Below, in pieces: positions 1-7,606 of a DNA stretch of 7,606 nucleotides (its first letter is position 1; each line of letters opens with the position of its first letter). The notes under the pieces were generated by a model, which was not told the DNA's origin, ran no database searches, and was given only the letters and a program-made list of their open reading frames with translations. The position numbers and the translations under genes were made by a program. The stretch is taken from positions 1 to 7,606 of the forward strand of contig MGSU01000208.1 in the NCBI GenBank assembly GCA_001799195.1. The letters run 5' to 3'. This DNA comes from Deltaproteobacteria bacterium RIFOXYA12_FULL_61_11. GTDB lineage: Bacteria; Bdellovibrionota_F; JAHFAK01; YA12-FULL-61-11.

Positions 1-446
1 GCATAGACTTCCCTATACGGCACGGCGACGAAACCCGTGCCACCGCGGCGAACCACGGTGTACGGAGAACGCAGGGCTTCGTCCTGCTCGGGGTGGGCGG
101 CGAGGTACGCTTCGAGTTCCTCGCGCGCGGCATCGGCGGGGTAGAAGGAGCAACCCGGCCTCCGGTCTGGCACGCCGGGGAAGAGCGAGGCATGGTTGGC
201 CTGGGGATCCCACGGTCCCTTGAACATGTCGTAGGCCAAGCGCTGCCAGGCGGGCCAGGAGGCTTTCTTGGAGATGAGTTCTGCCGCAGCTTCATCTTGT
301 TGCCGCCGGTAGATCACGTCGATCTCGGTGCAGGCCGCTACCAGATCGGGCAGGGCTTCGCGCAAGCAGGGTTCGAGCTGCTCGAAGTCGAAGGAGAGTT
401 CGGTCGGCCGGAAAGACTTCACGACCTCGGTTCCGGACCTTGGCAT
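1..446 (-). CDS. Probable M49-family (dipeptidyl-peptidase III-like) peptidase, N-terminal part; runs off the left edge
   Basis: A minus-strand frame is open from an ATG at 446 to the window edge (148 codons, no stop). The start is supported by an AGGAGG ribosome binding site at 453-458, six bases upstream. Features resembling the N-terminal region of bacterial M49 proteins, as I remember that family, are KGPWDPQ (residues 76-82), FYPAD (101-105) followed by a Glu-rich helix, SPYTVVRR (127-134) and VPYREVY (142-148). Family members are zinc metallopeptidases that remove dipeptides from peptide N-termini. Their zinc site (HExxGH) would lie beyond the window, so catalytic competence cannot be judged. 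No signal peptide is visible, which suggests a cytoplasmic protein. It follows the bactofilin gene by 45 bases in the same direction and may be the last gene of the par operon or have its own control. The assignment rests on motif recall only; a non-catalytic M49 relative is possible. Confidence 0.66.
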   Translation of the reverse strand, partial: MPRSGTEVVKSFRPTELSFDFEQLEPCLREALPDLVAACTEIDVIYRRQQDEAAAELISKKASWPAWQRLAYDMFKGPWDPQANHASLFPGVPDRRPGCSFYPADAAREELEAYLAAHPEQDEALRSPYTVVRRGGTGFVAVPYREVY

Positions 447-491: not shown

Positions 492-881
492 TCACGTTCT
501 CGGTTCGCCCGGTCCTCCCGGCAGTGAGGTCTGGCCGTCGCCCGACATCACGCAGGTGCCGTCGAACACCGCGCCTTCTTGGATGTGGATCGCGGGGGTG
601 TGGAGGTCCCCGACCATACAGCCCGGAGCGAGCAGTTCCACCCGTTTCTGGGCCTGGATCGAGCCGACGACTCGGCCTCGGATCGTGATCAGCCCGCAGT
701 GGATCTCGGCCTTGACCTCGGCTCCCTCTCCGATCAGCAGTCCGTCCTCGGTGAAGATCTCGCCGCTGAAACGACCGTCGATACGTACCGTGCCGCGATA
801 GTTGAGCTTGCCTTCGAACTCGGTGCCTTTGCCCAGAATGGTGGTCAATTCGTCGGGGTTGATCTGATTATTCTTGCCCAC
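492..881 (-). CDS. Bactofilin (polymer-forming cytoskeletal protein)
   Basis: A 129-residue protein of the bactofilin family (formerly DUF583), which folds as a right-handed beta-helix and polymerises into filaments without a nucleotide. The core runs from about residue 16 to 112. It shows the regular spacing of short beta-strands broken by glycines (LGKGTEFEGKL at 16-26, TVRIDGRFSGEI at 31-42, then repeated V/I-x-G turns). The short N-terminal tail (MGKNNQINPDELTT) and Gly/Pro-rich C-terminal tail (PGGPGEPRT) flank it, as is usual. There is no membrane segment. The start is GTG at 881, preceded by GAGG with six bases of spacing, and no other early start exists in frame. The gene lies 19 bases after parB in the same operon. 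In Myxococcus xanthus, bactofilins BacNOP scaffold the ParABS machinery near the cell poles. A similar ParA/ParB partner role is inferred here from gene order; cell-shape control is the main alternative. Confidence 0.9.
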   Translation of the reverse strand: MGKNNQINPDELTTILGKGTEFEGKLNYRGTVRIDGRFSGEIFTEDGLLIGEGAEVKAEIHCGLITIRGRVVGSIQAQKRVELLAPGCMVGDLHTPAIHIQEGAVFDGTCVMSGDGQTSLPGGPGEPRT

Positions 882-900
882 GCTCCGCCTCTTCGCGATG

Positions 901-1767
901 TCAAGCAGTTGGAGGAGTCGGGGCCAGCCGGCCGAGGATGCGTTGGAGGTCCGCCTCGTCGAGGTAATCGATGACGATGCGCCTGCGGCGTTCGTTGATG
1001 GCCACGCCGGTGCCCAAGTGATCCCCGAGGCTCCGTTCCAGGCTGAGATAGAATTCCTCCCTGGGTTTGGTCTTGGGTTCGGGCTTGGCCTTGGGCTCGG
1101 CTCCGGGCTCTTCGGCCTTGCGCCGCTTGACCAAGTCCTCGACCTGCCGTACCGAGAGACCCTGCTCGAGGATCTCCCGCGCCAGGACGAGCTGTTCCTC
1201 GGGGGTTGCCAGTGAGAGCAAGCTCCTGGCGTGGCCGGCGCTCAGGGATCCTCCGCGGACCATATCGCGGATCTCGGAGGGTAGGCGCAATAAGCGCAAG
1301 GTGTTGGCCAGGGTGCTGCGATCCTTGCCCAACCTCGTGGCTAGCGCTTCTTGGGTCTGGGAGAATTGCTCCATGAGGAGTTGGAAGGCTTCGGCCTCTT
1401 CCATAGGATTGAGGTCCTCGCGTTGGAGGTTCTCGATCAAGGAGATCTCCAGGGCTTCTTGGTCTTCGCTGTCCCGCACGATGACCGGCAACGTGGTCAG
1501 CTTGAGCTGCTGAGCGGCGCGCAGGCGGCGCTCACCGGCAAGGACCTCGTACCCGCGTTCGGTGCGGCGGACGATCAATGGTTGGAGCAGACCCTTCTCG
1601 CGGATCGAGGCGGCCAGTTCGTCGAGGTTCTCGAAGTCCTTCCGGGGTTGGCGTGGGTTGGGATACAGTTTCTCGATCGGGCAATGGAACATGCCCCCCA
1701 GATCCATGACGTCCGATGGCGGCAGCAGCGCCGACAAGCCTTTGCCCAATACATTCCTGGTGTTCAT
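901..1767 (-). CDS. parB: Chromosome partitioning protein ParB (Spo0J/Noc family)
   Basis: A full-length 288-residue ParB. It is a CTP-dependent clamp that loads at parS sites near the origin and spreads along DNA to form the partition complex. The N-terminus (RNVLGKGLSALLP, residues 4-16) is the conserved segment that stimulates ParA ATP hydrolysis. The ParB/sulfiredoxin-like domain follows, with PNPRQPRK (36-43), the arginine box GERRLRAA (78-85) and ENLQREDLNP (112-121). The parS-binding helix-turn-helix lies at about 140-163, followed by GHAR (178-181). A charged Pro/Lys/Glu linker (about 217-238) leads to the C-terminal dimerisation domain (about 239-283). The ATG overlaps the parA stop as ATGA, so the two are translationally coupled. 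All key motifs are present. I found no copy of the common parS palindrome (TGTTTCACGTGAAACA) in the window. Confidence 0.97.
   Translation of the reverse strand: MNTRNVLGKGLSALLPPSDVMDLGGMFHCPIEKLYPNPRQPRKDFENLDELAASIREKGLLQPLIVRRTERGYEVLAGERRLRAAQQLKLTTLPVIVRDSEDQEALEISLIENLQREDLNPMEEAEAFQLLMEQFSQTQEALATRLGKDRSTLANTLRLLRLPSEIRDMVRGGSLSAGHARSLLSLATPEEQLVLAREILEQGLSVRQVEDLVKRRKAEEPGAEPKAKPEPKTKPREEFYLSLERSLGDHLGTGVAINERRRRIVIDYLDEADLQRILGRLAPTPPTA
1061..1110 (-). repeat. Low-complexity Pro/Lys/Glu linker of ParB
   Basis: This coding stretch is built from alternating Pro, Lys, Glu and Ala codons and reads EPGAEPKAKPEPKTKP (residues 220-235). On the plus strand it appears as repeated ttggg/cttgg/gctcgg units. 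It is the flexible linker between the DNA-binding and dimerisation domains of ParB. Such linkers vary freely in sequence and length between species, so this probably reflects replication slippage with little constraint. Confidence 0.6.
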
Positions 1768-2537
1768 GTCATCCCCGCGTTACGCTCAATCAATTCTTTG
1801 GCCAGGGCGAAGTAGTTCAGACAACCCTTCGAGGCGATGTCGTACAGGAGTACCGGTTTGCCGAAGCTGGGGGCCTCGCTCAAGCGGACGTTCCGGGCAA
1901 TCACCGTCTCGAAGACCTGCTCCTTCATCGTGCTCCTGATATCATTGGCGACTTGATGAGTCAACTTGTTGCGAGCATCGTACATGGTCAGGAGAATGCC
2001 CTCGAGGCACAGGGCCGGGTTCACCCGACTCTTGATGAGTTCGATGGTCTGGAGCAACTGGGCCAACCCCTCCATGGCGTAGAACTCGCACTGCAACGGT
2101 ACCAGGACGCTGTCGGCCGCCGACAGAGCATTGATGGTCAGCATGCCCAGGGCCGGTGGACAATCGAGGACCACGAAGCGGTACCGTTCCACCAGAGGGG
2201 CGAGCGCACGACGCAAAGCCAGCTCGCGGTGTTCCCTGCCGAGCAGCTCCACCTCGGCGCCGATGAGGTGGTGATCGGCCGGTACCACGTCCAGGAAAGC
2301 CAGCTCGGTCTTCACGAGGGCCTGTTCGGCGGGTACGTCCTCGAGCATGATCTCATAGGTGGTATAGCGCAGTCCGGCTTTGTCGATACCAAAGCCGCTG
2401 GTCGCGTTGGCCTGGGAATCGACGTCGATGAGGAGGGTACGGCGCTCGGCCACGGCCAGCGAGGCAGCCAGATTGACCGCGGTGGTGGTCTTGCCGACCC
2501 CTCCTTTCTGGTTGGCGATGGCAATGACCTTGCCCAT
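1764..2537 (-). CDS. parA: Chromosome partitioning ATPase ParA (Soj)
   Basis: A 257-residue P-loop ATPase of the ParA/MinD superfamily that binds the nucleoid as an ATP dimer and moves ParB-parS complexes. It has the deviant Walker A motif KGGVGKTT (residues 11-18, with the signature lysine at 11), Walker A' LLIDVDSQAN (35-44), Walker B FVVLDCPP (121-128) and the late conserved block NVRLSEAPSFGKP (216-228). The short N-terminus, without a DNA-binding domain, marks it as the small chromosomal type, unlike large plasmid ParA proteins. The ATG at 2537 has GGAG seven bases upstream. A strong promoter lies just before the gene, and the stop overlaps the parB start by 4 bases. The neighbours (bat genes upstream, bactofilin downstream) differ from the common gidA/gidB setting of parAB. 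Chromosomal origin is inferred from sequence type and context. Confidence 0.97.
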   Translation of the reverse strand: MGKVIAIANQKGGVGKTTTAVNLAASLAVAERRTLLIDVDSQANATSGFGIDKAGLRYTTYEIMLEDVPAEQALVKTELAFLDVVPADHHLIGAEVELLGREHRELALRRALAPLVERYRFVVLDCPPALGMLTINALSAADSVLVPLQCEFYAMEGLAQLLQTIELIKSRVNPALCLEGILLTMYDARNKLTHQVANDIRSTMKEQVFETVIARNVRLSEAPSFGKPVLLYDIASKGCLNYFALAKELIERNAGMT

Positions 2538-2588: not shown

Positions 2589-2617
2589 ATGATAGGCTTC
2601 GGGAAGGGTGATGTCAA
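2589..2617 (-). promoter_or_regulatory. Sigma-70-type promoter of the parA-parB-bactofilin operon
   Basis: Reading on the minus strand, a perfect -35 hexamer TTGACA (2612-2617) is followed after exactly 17 bases by TATCAT (2589-2594), five of six matches to TATAAT. Transcription would start near 2582, about 45 bases before the parA ATG. The -35 box includes the TGA stop (2614-2616) of the preceding thioredoxin-fusion gene, so the promoter straddles the end of that gene. It is the best promoter match I noticed in the window and is in the right place to drive a separate par transcript. Activity has not been shown. Confidence 0.72.
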
Positions 2618-4029
2618 TTGCTCTCAGTGCCTTGCGACAGTAAGCCGACAGGTGGTTTGCCACCTGCGCTGCTCTCGAACGAGGAGACCCAGGCATACCA
2701 TCTCTTGCGAGTCTCCTCCCCTGGGCGGACTCCGGCATAGAGAATATTCTCGACCGTGGCATAGAAGTCTTTGAGGTCGCGCCGGGGCAACAAGGGATGC
2801 GTCGCCGTGGCCAGGCCCGCCTCGAGTTCCTCGAGGTTCCGCGGTCCATGCTCCAGCTCCGCCAGCACGGCCACGGTCCTCGCAACGCGGAGACGCAATC
2901 CGGACCACCACGCGGCTTCGTCGTGCTCCCATCCCTCGGACCGATAGGCAAGGGGAGGGATAGAAGGCTGCTCATACTGCCGTTCCGGCACGGTCCGAGT
3001 CCCCGGTGTCTCGACTGCGGCTCTCCCGCGTTTCCGCCAACGCCGTCCGAGAACCCAGACCAGGAGGATCCCGAGGAGCCCCACACCCAACCAGATCACC
3101 GGCGAGCGGCCGACCTCCACGACGAGGTCGGGGTGGGTCGAGGTCAAGAGCTCTCCTTGGTCGATCCGGTAATCGCAAGCCAGTTCGCGGAGGTTCAGGG
3201 GACCCAGGACCCGGGGTACCAGGGTGAGGTGGTGGACGACCTTGCGACCGATGACGCCGTCGCGTTTGAAGACATAGTCGAGTTGCTCGTGGTCCAGGAG
3301 CTCGAGGCCGGGATCGAACCGGTAGCGGGGCTTTTCGGCGGAGACCCTCGCATGGTCCCCGAGCACGACCAGTTCTATGGGGAAGACAAAGGGGCGGTCG
3401 AGGACCACCGAACGGTTGACCAGGGGCACCTCGAGGGAAACCTTGATGTAGTCGGGCTTCGAGTCTTCGCCGCCGCGCTCTTTGGCGAGGGCCTCGAGGA
3501 GCTCCCCGGCAGTGGCCGAGAGCCAGTCCCGGCCTCCGGTCACCATGCCGCGGACGAAACCGGCACCGTCGAGGAGCAAGGTGTGCGGGATACCGCTGAC
3601 GCCGAAGAGACGCTGCAACCGGCCGTCGCGATCGAGGAGGATCTCGAGCGGAGGCCCCAGGCTCTCGACGAAGGTCCTCAACGAGGGCCCATCCTCCTCG
3701 GAAGTTACGGCCAGGACTGCTGTTCCTCCGGCGTTCTTCGCCGCCAACTCCCGAAGTACCGGCAGTTCGCTGCGGCAGGCCCCGCACCAGGTCGCCCAGA
3801 ACGTGATCAGCGCGGGCTTTCCGCGAAGCGTGGCCGAATCGAAGGGCTTCCCTCCGAGTTCGGCGAGGGGTACGTCGAAGGGGAAGGCCACCGGTTCACG
3901 AAGCTCTTGAACGCCGAACGCCTTGAAGAGGATCGAGAGTTCTTCGGCGGGAGCCCCGGGGGGGAGCAAGCCCAGGATGAGCGCGAGGAGGACCCCCGCT
4001 CCGGCGGGACGACCGAGGCAGGACCTCAC
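2614..4029 (-). CDS. Membrane-anchored TlpA/thioredoxin-like protein fused to a BatD-like region, last gene of the bat operon
   Basis: With a GTG start at 4029 the protein has 471 residues. That start makes a GTGA overlap with the batE stop and puts a typical signal peptide first (residues 1-28, ending APA). A TTG ten codons upstream is possible but lies inside batE, lacks a well-spaced ribosome binding site and spoils the signal peptide. Residues about 49-182 form a TlpA/AhpC-TSA-type thioredoxin domain with the redox site WCGAC (81-85, cysteines 82 and 85) and the cis-proline motif GIPHT (146-150). Residues about 192-306 look like a beta-sandwich similar to BatD repeats. A membrane helix (about 311-328) ends in a basic stop-transfer (GRRWRKRGR). 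A cytoplasmic alpha-helical domain (about 369-455) recalls the tails of BatD or DUF4381 proteins. It probably catalyses thiol-disulfide exchange in the periplasm as part of the Bat complex. The thioredoxin call is firm; the BatD-like call is inference. Confidence 0.82.
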   Translation of the reverse strand: MRSCLGRPAGAGVLLALILGLLPPGAPAEELSILFKAFGVQELREPVAFPFDVPLAELGGKPFDSATLRGKPALITFWATWCGACRSELPVLRELAAKNAGGTAVLAVTSEEDGPSLRTFVESLGPPLEILLDRDGRLQRLFGVSGIPHTLLLDGAGFVRGMVTGGRDWLSATAGELLEALAKERGGEDSKPDYIKVSLEVPLVNRSVVLDRPFVFPIELVVLGDHARVSAEKPRYRFDPGLELLDHEQLDYVFKRDGVIGRKVVHHLTLVPRVLGPLNLRELACDYRIDQGELLTSTHPDLVVEVGRSPVIWLGVGLLGILLVWVLGRRWRKRGRAAVETPGTRTVPERQYEQPSIPPLAYRSEGWEHDEAAWWSGLRLRVARTVAVLAELEHGPRNLEELEAGLATATHPLLPRRDLKDFYATVENILYAGVRPGEETRKRWYAWVSSFESSAGGKPPVGLLSQGTESN

Positions 4030-4763
4030 AGCAGTTCCACGAAGGTGCGGTCGACCCAACCCTTCTTGCCGTCGGGGAGGACGATCTTATACCAACCCTC
4101 GGCTTCGGCCTCGACCTCGACCTCGGCAGCCTCGTGCAAGTTGAACAAGACGGCCCCTCCTTTGCCGGAACGGACCTGGACCTCCTCATGGATCACCACG
4201 GCCCGCTGCTCGAAGCGTTCGGTGAAGGCCTTGATCGCGCTGCTCCCGGCGAAACAGAGGGTGAGTGCCAATACCCCGTGGAAAACCCAGCGCAGGAGTT
4301 CTCCGTCCCATCTGCGCCGCAGGACCCAGAGGGCCCAGAACACGGCATTGAATACCAGGGTCAATGCGAGCAATTCGTTCAGGCTGAGCCCATGGTACCA
4401 GAAGGCCAAGACCCTCAAGGCTTGGCCCGTCTCGCTCGGTTCGAGCCGGTCCCGGGCAAGCTCTTTGACGAAGCGGATATTGGCCTGGAGGTCCTCGTCG
4501 CGCGGAGCCAGGAGCTCGGCACGGCGGTAAGAGGCCAGGGCCCTGCCGAGTTTCCCGAGCCGATACAAAGTATTACCGAGGTTGTAATGCAAGGCGGGGC
4601 TGTTCAGGCCACTGGCCCGCAGCTCCTCGTAGGAAGCCAGGGCCTCGGCGTAGCGTTGTTCGGCGTATTGGGCATTGGCCTTGAAAAAGGCTGTCGTCTG
4701 GGCGCTGCTCGAGGCGAGCCAGCAACCCAGCCCGACGATAGCACCGGCAATCCACCGCTTCAC
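4026..4763 (-). CDS. batE: BatE-like protein: TPR repeats, two membrane helices and an SH3-like domain
   Basis: A 245-residue envelope protein. A signal sequence (about 1-21) is followed by TPR repeats (about 25-95, with LNSPALHYNLGNTLYRLGK as the clearest, 53-71). Two membrane helices (about 129-148 and 157-176) are joined by a short basic loop. A bacterial SH3-like domain closes the protein (about 187-243), with the typical GWYKIVLPDGKKGWV near its end. This order is typical of BatE, whose TPRs are thought to mediate contacts in the Bat complex. The start is GTG at 4763, overlapping the batD stop as GTGA, with GAGGTG five bases upstream. Inside the SH3 domain, residues 211-222 are a run of alternating Glu and Ala/Val. 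The batE name rests on domain order and operon position. The biochemical role of BatE is not settled in any organism. Confidence 0.85.
   Translation of the reverse strand: MKRWIAGAIVGLGCWLASSSAQTTAFFKANAQYAEQRYAEALASYEELRASGLNSPALHYNLGNTLYRLGKLGRALASYRRAELLAPRDEDLQANIRFVKELARDRLEPSETGQALRVLAFWYHGLSLNELLALTLVFNAVFWALWVLRRRWDGELLRWVFHGVLALTLCFAGSSAIKAFTERFEQRAVVIHEEVQVRSGKGGAVLFNLHEAAEVEVEAEAEGWYKIVLPDGKKGWVDRTFVELL
4098..4133 (-). repeat. Short hexamer-like repeat inside batE (Glu-Ala/Val run)
   Basis: Twelve codons alternate GAG/GAA (Glu) with GCC/GCT (Ala) or GTC (Val) and encode EAAEVEVEAEAE in the SH3-like domain. On the plus strand this appears as imperfect copies of a six-base unit such as cctcga and cggcct. 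It replaces a normally more varied strand-and-turn of the SH3 fold, so the frame and fold are probably kept. Slippage at this site could change the length by multiples of two residues. Confidence 0.5.
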
Positions 4764-6514
4764 GCCAACACCTCGTCAACCTCGGCTAAAAAGGTTTCGA
4801 AGACCCGGGCAAGCTCGCTCCGTTCCAGGGGCAGCCGGGCGGCACCGCTGAACTCCATGCGGACCAGGGCCTCGAGCAGTTCGAGGAAACGCTCGGTGTT
4901 TCCCCGGTCCTGGGCCGAGGCCCGTAAGCGGTCTGCCAAGTCCTCGGGGGTGAGCGAGCCGCCGGGGAGGCCCAGCTTGTCGCCGAAATAGACCTGGACG
5001 GTACGGACGAGTTGTCTGGCGAAGGCAGGGTCCTCGCTCTGGTGCTGGAGGTGTTTTTTCAAGGTCCTCTGGAAGTGTTTGAAGGCGTAGCGGCTGCGGT
5101 GCTGTTGCTGGTTCAGGAGCCGGTCTTTGTCGCGTCTGCGTAGCAGCTCGAACCCCGCGAACCCGAGCATCGGCAGGAACAAGAAGAGGTAGGTCCAGGC
5201 GCTGGTCAGGAGGTCGGGGCTCGGCGCGAAGTGCTCCACCTCACCGTGGATATCCAGGATGTCCTTGCCCAGAACCTTGACCCGTTCTTTCCCGACCACC
5301 AGGTTGGTGGCCTCGACCGCGTTGAGGTGCTCGCTCTCGGCTGCTGCCAGGACCTCGAGGCGGTGCTCGGGGGTGGCCAGGTGTTCGTAACGCCCGGTAC
5401 GCGGATTGAACTGGTTCAGTACCACGGCCGGCAGGGTGAAGCTACCGGGCGCGAGGGGGACGAGGGCCTTCTTGAGGATCTTCACCATGTACAACCCGTC
5501 CGGACCGGGCTTGACCTCGAGGCTCGGCTTGTCGTCGTAAGGCTTGAAGTGTTCGAGCGAGGAAATAGAAAACCCGTTGAAATCTCTCAAGTTTCCATAG
5601 CCTTTGAGGGTGCAGGTGAGGGTCAGGGACTCGCCGACCCTCGCCTGTTGTTTCGAGATGGTGGTGTCTGCGTTGAACACCCCGACCAGGCCGGAGAATC
5701 CTTCCGGTCTGCCCTCCTCGGGCAAGGGCTTGACGTTCAGTTCGATCGGTTGGCTGCGCAGCACCTTCGCCTGGGTCCTGCCGCCGAAGATTGGGTCATC
5801 GAAGAGATTGGAGAAAGGTGTGCGCTGCCGTCCCTTGACGCGCACCTGCAACTTGAGCGCGTAGGGGGGGATGGTCTGCAGGCCGGGGCGCATCGGGAAG
5901 AGCGCCTCGCTGAACTCGTAGACCTTGTATTCCTGACCTTCGTGCATCCTCGAATACTCGTGTTCCTTGACCAGGGGTTCGGCCACGAAGCCTTCGAGGG
6001 TCGGTTTCTCCAAGCTGGCGTCGCTGACCGAGACGCGACGGTAGAACGAGAAGGTCAAGATGACCTGTTGACCGACATAGGGCGAGGTGGTGTCGACCGT
6101 CGCGTTGACGAACAACGGATTGCCCGCGGACTGCACGCTTTCGGAGGCCCGCGGTCTTCCCACGTGCAGTCCAACACTGTTGCTGCGATAGCGTCGATCG
6201 CCCGAGGAGAGCTCCACGGGGCCGAGGACGAAATTACCCTCGCGCAGGGGCGAGAGGACATAGGTGAAGGTGGTCGCCACCGAGACCGAACCGTTGACGA
6301 TCTGCATTTGCGAGGAGGTGCCCTGGTAGGTGATCTCGAAGGAGGCATTTTCGGGCAAGACCGGAGGAGAAGGATTGCGGACACCCTCGACGCTGATGGT
6401 CAGCACGACCTGGTCTTCGAGGGTGCAGTATTGATGATCGAGCTCGGCGGTGACGCGCACCTCGGCCGAGGCGGCGAGGGCGTGGAACATGGCCAGGAAG
6501 AGGAGCGCTCTCAT
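4760..6514 (-). CDS. batD: BatD (oxygen-tolerance family) membrane-anchored protein
   Basis: A 584-residue protein with a signal peptide (1-17, ending ASA). A long periplasmic region of about 410 residues follows, made of beta-sandwich repeats. Repeated phrases such as VTAELDHQYCTLEDQVVLTI (21-40), VDTTSPYVGQQVILTFSF (140-157) and TTISKQQARVGESLTLTCTL (284-303) each open a repeat in BatD fashion. A membrane helix lies at about 437-457, followed by the basic LLRRRDKDR, and a cytoplasmic helical tail of about 125 residues ends the protein. BatD is the large envelope component encoded in bat operons of Bacteroides, Leptospira and many Gram-negative bacteria. In Bacteroides fragilis the locus was linked to aerotolerance, whereas work in Leptospira did not support an oxidative-stress role. 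The ATG at 6514 has GAGG eight bases upstream, overlapping the batC stop. The gene follows batC by 10 bases and overlaps batE by 4. Confidence 0.93.
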   Translation of the reverse strand: MRALLFLAMFHALAASAEVRVTAELDHQYCTLEDQVVLTISVEGVRNPSPPVLPENASFEITYQGTSSQMQIVNGSVSVATTFTYVLSPLREGNFVLGPVELSSGDRRYRSNSVGLHVGRPRASESVQSAGNPLFVNATVDTTSPYVGQQVILTFSFYRRVSVSDASLEKPTLEGFVAEPLVKEHEYSRMHEGQEYKVYEFSEALFPMRPGLQTIPPYALKLQVRVKGRQRTPFSNLFDDPIFGGRTQAKVLRSQPIELNVKPLPEEGRPEGFSGLVGVFNADTTISKQQARVGESLTLTCTLKGYGNLRDFNGFSISSLEHFKPYDDKPSLEVKPGPDGLYMVKILKKALVPLAPGSFTLPAVVLNQFNPRTGRYEHLATPEHRLEVLAAAESEHLNAVEATNLVVGKERVKVLGKDILDIHGEVEHFAPSPDLLTSAWTYLFLFLPMLGFAGFELLRRRDKDRLLNQQQHRSRYAFKHFQRTLKKHLQHQSEDPAFARQLVRTVQVYFGDKLGLPGGSLTPEDLADRLRASAQDRGNTERFLELLEALVRMEFSGAARLPLERSELARVFETFLAEVDEVLA

Positions 6515-6524
6515 CCGCGAGGCC

Positions 6525-7322
6525 TCACCAGTCTTTGCCCGAACGAGGAGCGCTGCCCGTCGTCGCTGTGCCCTGGGTCACCTTGCTGCGCTGTTCTTCG
6601 GACAACGAATTCAACCACTTTTCTGCCTCTTCGCGGCTCATGCGCTGTCCCTCGGCCCGTTGTCCGCCCTGCGGTTCGCCTTCGGGGGGTTGTTTGGGGG
6701 GCTCTGTCTGGGCGGATCGGGCTTCTTCTGCTCCGCGATCGTCCGAGCCATCTTGGCCTTGTTGCTGCCCGTTCTGCTCCTGCCCTTGTTGGGGGTTTTC
6801 CTGCTGACCCTGCTGTTGTTCACCTTGCTGAGACTGGGGCTGCTCCCCCTTCTGCTGTTCCTGCTGTTTGCGCCGCTCGGCTTCCTCGTTCAGTCGGCGC
6901 TTGATCTCCTCGCGCGTGTACTCGAGGTTGAAGCGGGCGTCTTCGTCCTTGGGGTCGAGTTCGAGGGCCCTTGTATAATAGTTCACCGCCTCGGTCAATT
7001 TTCCTTGGCGGAAGAAAGCATTACCCACGTTGTAGGCGGCTCGCTGTTCCAGACGGAGGTCTCCGCGGGCGGCCGCGGCGAGGAAGGCCTTGATCGCCTC
7101 CTCGTAATTGCCAGTCCGGTATTGGGCTAGGCCGATGTCGTACCGCAGTCGCGGGTCTCCCGGGTGCTCGACCTCGGCATCGATGAAGCGTTGTAGGGCC
7201 TCGGCATAGTCTCCCCGATCATAGGCGGCGATGCCCTCGGCGACGGTGGAGGCAAGGTTCGCGGCCACGAGCTGCGTCCCACCCAGGAAGAGCGTACTCA
7301 GGAGAAGCCGTAGGACCGTCAT
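6525..7322 (-). CDS. batC: BatC: TPR protein with a Gln-rich tail
   Basis: A 265-residue protein starting at ATG 7322, which overlaps the upstream stop as ATGA and has AGAGG seven bases before it. A start 33 codons further upstream stays in frame but reads through the end of the VWA gene and lacks a signal sequence. The N-terminus (MTVLRLLLSTLFLGGTQLVA) is a signal peptide or anchor. Three TPR repeats follow (about 24-55, 58-90 and 94-127), the last with NVGNAFFRQGKLTEAVNYY (98-116). A charged helix leads into a Gln/Gly/Glu-rich stretch (about 151-190) and a Pro/Glu-rich stretch (207-225). The C-terminal helix EEAEKWLNSLSEEQR (231-245) and the final KDW are typical of BatC proteins. It probably acts as a periplasmic scaffold that binds the VWA proteins BatA/BatB. 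The gene sits at the expected place between the VWA gene and batD. Confidence 0.92.
   Translation of the reverse strand: MTVLRLLLSTLFLGGTQLVAANLASTVAEGIAAYDRGDYAEALQRFIDAEVEHPGDPRLRYDIGLAQYRTGNYEEAIKAFLAAAARGDLRLEQRAAYNVGNAFFRQGKLTEAVNYYTRALELDPKDEDARFNLEYTREEIKRRLNEEAERRKQQEQQKGEQPQSQQGEQQQGQQENPQQGQEQNGQQQGQDGSDDRGAEEARSAQTEPPKQPPEGEPQGGQRAEGQRMSREEAEKWLNSLSEEQRSKVTQGTATTGSAPRSGKDW
6753..6870 (-). repeat. Gln-rich low-complexity segment of batC
   Basis: This stretch is dominated by CAG and CAA glutamine codons with Gly and Glu (residues about 151-190). On the plus strand it gives a tract of tgctg/ttgttg triplets. It encodes a disordered linker between the TPR domain and the conserved C-terminal helix. 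Read on the opposite strand it produces a Leu-rich pseudo-membrane protein, which is not real. Confidence 0.7.
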
Positions 7323-7606
7323 CGGGCTACCTCTGTCTTGTTCCGGCGCTCGGAGAGCATGGTTTCTGCCACGAGGGCCAACAGAGCGAGGGCCAAGAGG
7401 AGCTGAAAGCGTTCTTCCCACTTCTTCTGCCTCGCGCTGCTGAGTTCTTGCTTCTCCATGCGTTGCTTGATGTCCTCGAGATAGATCTTTTCGAGGTCCA
7501 TGTCGCCGCTGACCGAGCGCACGTAGCTGCCGCTGGTCTCGAGGGCGATCTTCTGCAACGTAGTCTCGTCCAGACGGGTCAGGATCATCTCTCCCCGGTC
7601 ATCCTT
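7319..7606 (-). CDS. batB: C-terminal part of a BatA/BatB-type von Willebrand factor A protein; runs off the right edge
   Basis: The frame is open through the right edge, so an in-frame ATG at 7588 is internal and not the start. The visible 95 residues begin KDDRGEMILTRLDETTLQKI. They continue with IALETSGSYVRSVSGD, an amphipathic linker, the basic segment ARQKKWEERFQ, a membrane helix (LLLALALLALVAETML) and a short basic tail. In Bat VWA proteins the end of the VWA domain (a 'srLde..L..iA..tgG.Y' pattern) and a C-terminal anchor look just like this. The metal-ion site (DxSxS) lies outside the window. Its position directly before batC favours BatB over BatA. Its stop overlaps the batC start by 4 bases. 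BatA and BatB are inner-membrane proteins with the VWA domain facing the periplasm and are thought to form the core of the complex. Confidence 0.85.
   Translation of the reverse strand, partial: KDDRGEMILTRLDETTLQKIALETSGSYVRSVSGDMDLEKIYLEDIKQRMEKQELSSARQKKWEERFQLLLALALLALVAETMLSERRNKTEVAR

Follow-up and report, generated by a model that had tools for sequence, protein, structure and literature searches.

A predicted TlpA/ResA-type oxidoreductase fused to a BatD-like membrane module recurs in one subtype of bat operon

The stretch of DNA analysed here, which we call the window, is 7,606 nucleotides long and makes up the entire contig C208 of the fragmented genome of Deltaproteobacteria bacterium RIFOXYA12_FULL_61_11. 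Its minus strand carries the downstream end of a bat operon, closed by a gene that joins a thioredoxin domain to a BatD-like membrane module (Table 1). The original prediction had placed this fusion gene last in a bat operon, and its neighbours, the end of BatB followed by BatC, BatD and BatE, bear this out. The operon begins on another contig of this genome, C247, whose end encodes a 269-aa BatD-like protein, MoxR, a DUF58 protein, a TPR-PPIC protein, a short BatD, BatA and residues 1-177 of BatB. Split over the two contigs, MoxR, DUF58, BatA, BatB, BatC/TPR and BatD are all present. With an inferred join of C247 to C208, the operon would read 269-aa mini-BatD, MoxR, DUF58, TPR-PPIC, short BatD, BatA, BatB, BatC, BatD, BatE, fusion. 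Starting 76 nt downstream of the fusion gene are parA, parB and bactofilin genes on the same strand (window 492-2537, minus), and past bactofilin is a 148-aa ORF (window 3-446, minus) with no significant Pfam or NCBIfam match.

The fusion gene is real and its coordinates are right (minus strand, 4029-2614, 471 aa). The open frame extends from a TTG at 4059 to 2614; 4029 is the likely start, because its GTG and the batE stop codon overlap by 4 nt (GTGA), and batD and batE overlap in the same way. This arrangement suggests that the fusion gene is translationally coupled to batE. Residue numbers of the fusion protein (WCGAC, E98, P158 and others) are counted from the 4059 start. The protein consists of a signal peptide, a TlpA/ResA-type thioredoxin, a beta-sandwich of about 115 aa, one membrane-spanning helix and a putative helical tail, with the signal peptide and the membrane helix predicted from hydropathy and the structural model.

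Table 1. Genes of the bat operon in the window and predicted parts of the fusion protein
Feature	Position	Strand	Remarks
batB, C-terminal end	7319..7606	-	first 177 residues on contig C247, same genome
batC, TPR protein	6525..7421	-	longest ORF; real start probably nearer 7321
batD, PF13584 (4e-28)	4760..6514	-	
batE, TPR + SH3	4026..4763	-	
Thioredoxin-mini-BatD fusion gene, 471 aa	2614..4029	-	GTG start in GTGA overlap with batE
Predicted signal peptide, hydrophobic stretch ALILGLLPPGAPA, no lipobox cysteine	3946..4029	-	sequence, hydropathy
Predicted TlpA/ResA-type thioredoxin domain	3481..3880	-	WCGAC, Glu 3 residues past second Cys, cis-Pro in GIPHT
Single BatD-like beta-sandwich (Ig-like)	3110..3453	-	
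Predicted transmembrane helix	3025..3099	-	followed by RRWRKRGR (cytoplasmic side)
Putative cytoplasmic helical tail	2617..3024	-	VENILYAG motif; low-confidence model

By its modelled fold and its residues, the first half of the fusion is a TlpA/ResA-type oxidoreductase of predicted activity. A TlpA-like domain with an intact redox site had been proposed for the window protein, and this is confirmed by matches to Redoxin (7.5e-16), AhpC-TSA (1.3e-14) and Thioredoxin_8, all above Pfam cut-offs, and by WCGAC at residues 91-95, Glu98 and cis-Pro 158. All 17 aligned fusions conserve W88, A89, W91, C92, C95, E98, D143 and P158 without exception. The best solved match to the model is TlpA (1jfu; Z 19.9, rmsd 2.1, 156 aligned, 28% identity). 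Glu98 of the fusions is the equivalent of ResA E80, the Glu after CxxC that substrate recognition requires and that characterises reducing oxidoreductases outside the cytoplasm (PMC5909903). The window protein, with GVSGIPHTL, matches the CcmG fingerprint GVXGXPETF incompletely; ResA and HP0377 lack the fingerprint too (PMC5909903). The fusion shares with TlpA, ResA and CcmG the fold, the CxxC, the Glu after it and the cis-Pro, and may like them be exported and membrane-anchored, as hydropathy and the model predict. Those proteins are anchored by an N-terminal helix, whereas the fusion has its predicted anchor at the C-terminus, with a BatD-like repeat and a tail, and its gene sits in a bat operon.

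In the phylum surveyed, the fusion recurs as an accessory gene of a single subtype of bat operon. We ran a profile of three fusions over 368 genomes of the Bdellovibrionota group, the phylum of Bdellovibrionales SI034_bin15, and also surveyed a wide sample of 386 genomes; in both, four candidates per genome were scored and the best matches listed, and weak or divergent fusions may be missed. At least 15 of the 368 genomes carry the fusion, in at least 16 copies, and 318 carry BatD. Fifteen of these 16 immediately precede moxR as the first gene of a bat operon, most of them overlapping it or leaving a gap below 70 nt; one copy has a 984-nt gap to moxR, which holds an antisense ORF. The sixteenth (L076:9866-11197) is an orphan paralogue that lies outside any bat operon; its genome has an operon copy (L078) as well.

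The distribution follows the type of BatD. Sixteen genomes have BatD profile scores at E 1e-130 or better, and the next score is 6e-79. Among the matches listed, the fusion occurs in 15 of these 16 genomes versus none of 127 other scored genomes, and in the sixteenth (G119) the operon is cut by a contig end. Eleven of the 16 BatDs were in the BatD profile; the five outside it (G081, G103, G119, G180, G256) also score high. The genome G256 has two BatD types (L172 on G256:C45, and G256:C75:35110-36579), with the fusion in the operon of only one, and at L172 BatD and BatE form one 896-aa ORF. No thioredoxin gene lies beside nine full bat operons of other type in the Bdellovibrionota group or beside the cut-off G119 locus. 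On inspection of the sequence, the other-type operons L214, L215, L217 and L218 lie near type IV pilus-like genes (PilB/PilT/PilC-like, pilin).

In the wide sample, matches extending beyond the thioredoxin domain came, among those listed, only from the window genome and two genomes of one family. The lineage of that family, a second deep one, has the fusion in three of five genomes, directly after batE in the bat operon, as in the window. Of the fusions in this lineage, L208:7008-8141 lacks the cytoplasmic tail and L238:7640-9055 has it, and the BatD proteins at both loci are unusually long (1054-1058 aa). Recurrence in the Bdellovibrionota group and in the second lineage rules out a fusion private to the window genome. 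The window's class holds one further genome, whose bat operon is without the fusion, and when 247 Bacteroidota genomes were searched by profile, none of the 12 loci read was a fusion. The view that standard bat operons do not carry such a gene is supported to the extent that the fusion is rare in them, with none among the Bacteroidota loci read and no thioredoxin beside ten other Bdellovibrionota-group operons; the architecture does recur in bat operons elsewhere, usually as the first gene.

The fusion may have a single origin. A free quick tree of 85 thioredoxin domains requires two changes to account for the 20 fusion rows, against a shuffled mean of 18.1, and the best tree that keeps all 20 together has a log-likelihood 35.6 above that of the free quick tree. 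The fusion is first in the operon in one group and last in two other groups.

We lean towards reading the fusion as a predicted membrane-tethered periplasmic thiol-disulfide reductase dedicated to one Bat-system subtype. The invariant CxxC, Glu98 and cis-Pro in 17 fusions and the TlpA fold argue for a reductase, and the placement of 15 of 16 copies in bat operons, the linkage in a second lineage and the restriction to one BatD type argue for a connection to Bat. The alternative that survives best, although we consider it unlikely, is a general TlpA/ResA-type reductase, for example in cytochrome c or oxidase assembly, with the BatD-like repeat as a stalk and a place in the operon that reflects shared expression and not a complex. 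It would fit the fold search, in which the thioredoxin half returns TlpA trapped with CoxB and with ScoI as well as the nearest solved fold, and the C-terminal half returns only generic Ig-like sandwiches (A2ML1, BcpA, TRAP subunits, cohesin; Z about 9-10.6). However, the linkage to the bat operon is kept across deep lineages in two different positions, the fusion is found with only one BatD type in the phylum surveyed (among the matches listed), and for housekeeping the window genome has a further nine or more thioredoxin-like loci.

A reductase dedicated to the Bat system also agrees with the second half of the fusion, which at the family level is a mini-BatD by profile comparison. The C-terminal family profile matches BatD at hhalign E 6e-10, the aligned region being the final repeat ahead of the BatD membrane helix, and all decoys (reversed, column-shuffled and six other operon proteins) gave E 0.003 or worse. 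The same profile recovers the ordinary BatD of about 600 aa in Bacteroidota (247 genomes). Of the 17 alignment members, seven match PF13584 with E values no higher than 1 (best 3.6e-6), and the L238 fusion passes the Pfam cut-off (8e-8; 33.3 bits versus 24.1). No BatD structure was among the fold-search matches to the C-terminal half, and a PDB sequence search with it found nothing. DUF4381, which had been put forward for comparison, matches the short BatD of the window genome weakly (4e-4) and does not match the fusion.

The original prediction described a sandwich, a helix and a cytoplasmic helical domain in an order mirroring BatD. An AF2 model built with 17 sequences gives the thioredoxin and beta-sandwich blocks mostly pLDDT 80-95, places a membrane helix at 321-345 and gives the tail about 35-60. 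The sandwich and helix are thus modelled as proposed, and the cytoplasmic helical domain is a low-confidence candidate: the tail alone matches BatD at E 0.009, which is not significant by itself, although a YAG-type motif recurs in the tails. The order of repeat, helix and tail does resemble BatD, but there is one sandwich and not several tandem repeats, which brings the fusion nearer to the short BatD.

For the window protein itself, the BatD-like character of the second half is weak when judged by sequence alone. Pfam recognises its thioredoxin half and gives no PF13584 match for the rest, no direct match to BatD profiles is significant, and HMMER relates this half to the other fusions at E 0.002. 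Its sandwich aligns pairwise with a mean z of 1.5-2.0 (negative controls: mean 0.05, max 2.2), which does not decide the matter. The HMMER value and the lack of a significant match to BatD profiles would suit a convergent Ig-like stalk behind the thioredoxin, non-homologous to BatD. We find this quite improbable, as hhalign relates the same half to the other fusions at E 3.4e-4 over 116 collinear columns (score 32.5 versus a maximum of 18.1 in 40 shuffles). The window half is probably BatD-like also because its thioredoxin groups with the second-lineage fusions (SH-aLRT 86), one of which passes the BatD cut-off, and because its gene occupies the same place after batE. The weak HMMER value of the window's C-terminal half, its lack of a Pfam BatD match and the missing tail at L208 count against the dedicated-reductase reading.

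Three relatives within bat operons place the second half more closely. Like BatD (PF13584), the fusion belongs to the bat operon and has, at the family level, a homologous repeat before the membrane helix; unlike BatD, it has a single repeat and an N-terminal thioredoxin, and the window protein falls below the Pfam cut-off. With the short BatD (BatD2, 325 aa in the window genome) it shares a single repeat, a membrane helix and a predicted helical tail, and its C-terminal profile matches short BatD along 216-218 columns, membrane helix and tail included (E 4e-8, over 218 columns for BatD2, and 2.4e-7), whereas the short BatD has no thioredoxin domain. The third is the 269-aa protein encoded directly before moxR in the window genome (G000:C247:34466-35275, the same as L124:12467-13276), which consists of a signal peptide, a BatD-like part, a membrane helix and a tail. 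The fusion C-terminal profile matches it over nearly its full length (E 1.3e-9), but it has no thioredoxin, and so the mini-BatD is a module that occurs both with and without one. Its slot before moxR is the slot of the fusion in Bdellovibrionota-group genomes.

As a dedicated reductase anchored in the inner membrane, the fusion would draw electrons for its exported thioredoxin domain from a transporter of CcdA/DsbD type. Its mini-BatD half, made up of repeat, helix and tail, would attach it to the MoxR-BatA/BatB-BatD machine in the way expected of other BatD paralogues. There it would reduce disulfides or oxidised cysteines of envelope proteins handled by the Bat machine, beside the PPIC isomerase of the operon. 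A DsbD/CcdA family member is present in 19 of 20 genomes checked, the window genome included. As support for the electron supply this is weak, because the family is found in most bacteria.

We give little credence to a redox switch, in which oxidation of the CxxC alters the BatD-like part and the tail and so tunes the Bat/MoxR machine to the periplasmic redox state. In most copies the thioredoxin is joined through the repeat and helix to a cytoplasmic tail, a possible signal path, but that tail is absent in L208 and poorly modelled, and the invariant reductase-type Glu and cis-Pro point to catalysis. A disulfide isomerase or oxidase that folds envelope proteins together with the operon's PPIC isomerase is very doubtful as well, for although a PPIC rotamase is in the same operon and the CxxC dipeptides vary among fusions (GA, AP, GT, GP, PV, GF), the fusion lacks a DsbC-type dimerisation domain, its Glu98 marks the reducing group, and the residue before cis-Pro is Ile, Val or Leu, not the Thr of isomerases (PMC5909903).

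The dedicated reductase would face the same compartment as the VWA parts of the Bat proteins, because experiments in Borrelia located a VWA domain of this class in the periplasm (PMC5700661). The Bat proteins of fusion-type operons are cysteine-poor. The one conserved periplasmic cysteine is a lone residue of BatA, in the motif TQCPLT of the VWA domain (residue ~144; L074, L078, L124, L164-L176); every fusion-type Bdellovibrionota-group operon whose BatA was read has it, and nine other operons there lack it. The motif also occurs in G001 and in six Bacteroidota BatA proteins, all without the fusion. The TQCPLT cysteine, being not fusion-specific, was rejected as the fusion's special target, and a Bat protein as special substrate is unsupported.

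A link between Bat and redox chemistry has a long history. In 1999 Bat proteins were proposed to act in protein repair or in exporting reducing power to the periplasm, because reducing agents partly rescued a Bacteroides mutant (PMC3557215). A Leptospira bat mutant had no oxidative-stress defect (PMC3557215), and the reducing-power idea has been called not directly proven (PMC5700661). Known fusions of bat genes are batB-batC and, in spirochaetes, BatD with TPR and SH3 (PMC3557215, PMC5700661); no description of a thioredoxin/TlpA-BatD fusion was found in the literature searched, most subscription papers being outside its scope. A conserved fusion of a predicted thiol reductase to a Bat domain, encoded within bat operons, provides genomic evidence for thiol chemistry in at least some Bat systems. 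With a defined enzyme, its active-site residues and a trapping mutant to work from, the open question of Bat redox function becomes testable.

A broader idea, which we hold only tentatively and would not yet bet on, is that one Bat subtype is a redox-coupled machine for envelope folding or repair, in which MoxR, VWA proteins and BatD act alongside a PPIC isomerase and a dedicated thiol reductase with a BatD-type tether. If this were true, the fusion would represent the enzyme that the reducing-power model of Bat has long called for, an enzyme built into the system in some lineages and supplied in trans in others. Two predicted folding activities, a thioredoxin and a PPIC isomerase, are encoded beside the MoxR ATPase and VWA proteins. 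In fusion-type operons a TPR protein lies between DUF58 and the short BatD (L124:15246-16490, L078:13244-14500, L074:13127-14104). Two of these three have a PPIC-type rotamase (Rotamase_2) domain (4.7e-9 in L124 and 3e-14 in L078), and the L074 protein has weak SurA_N and TPR matches.
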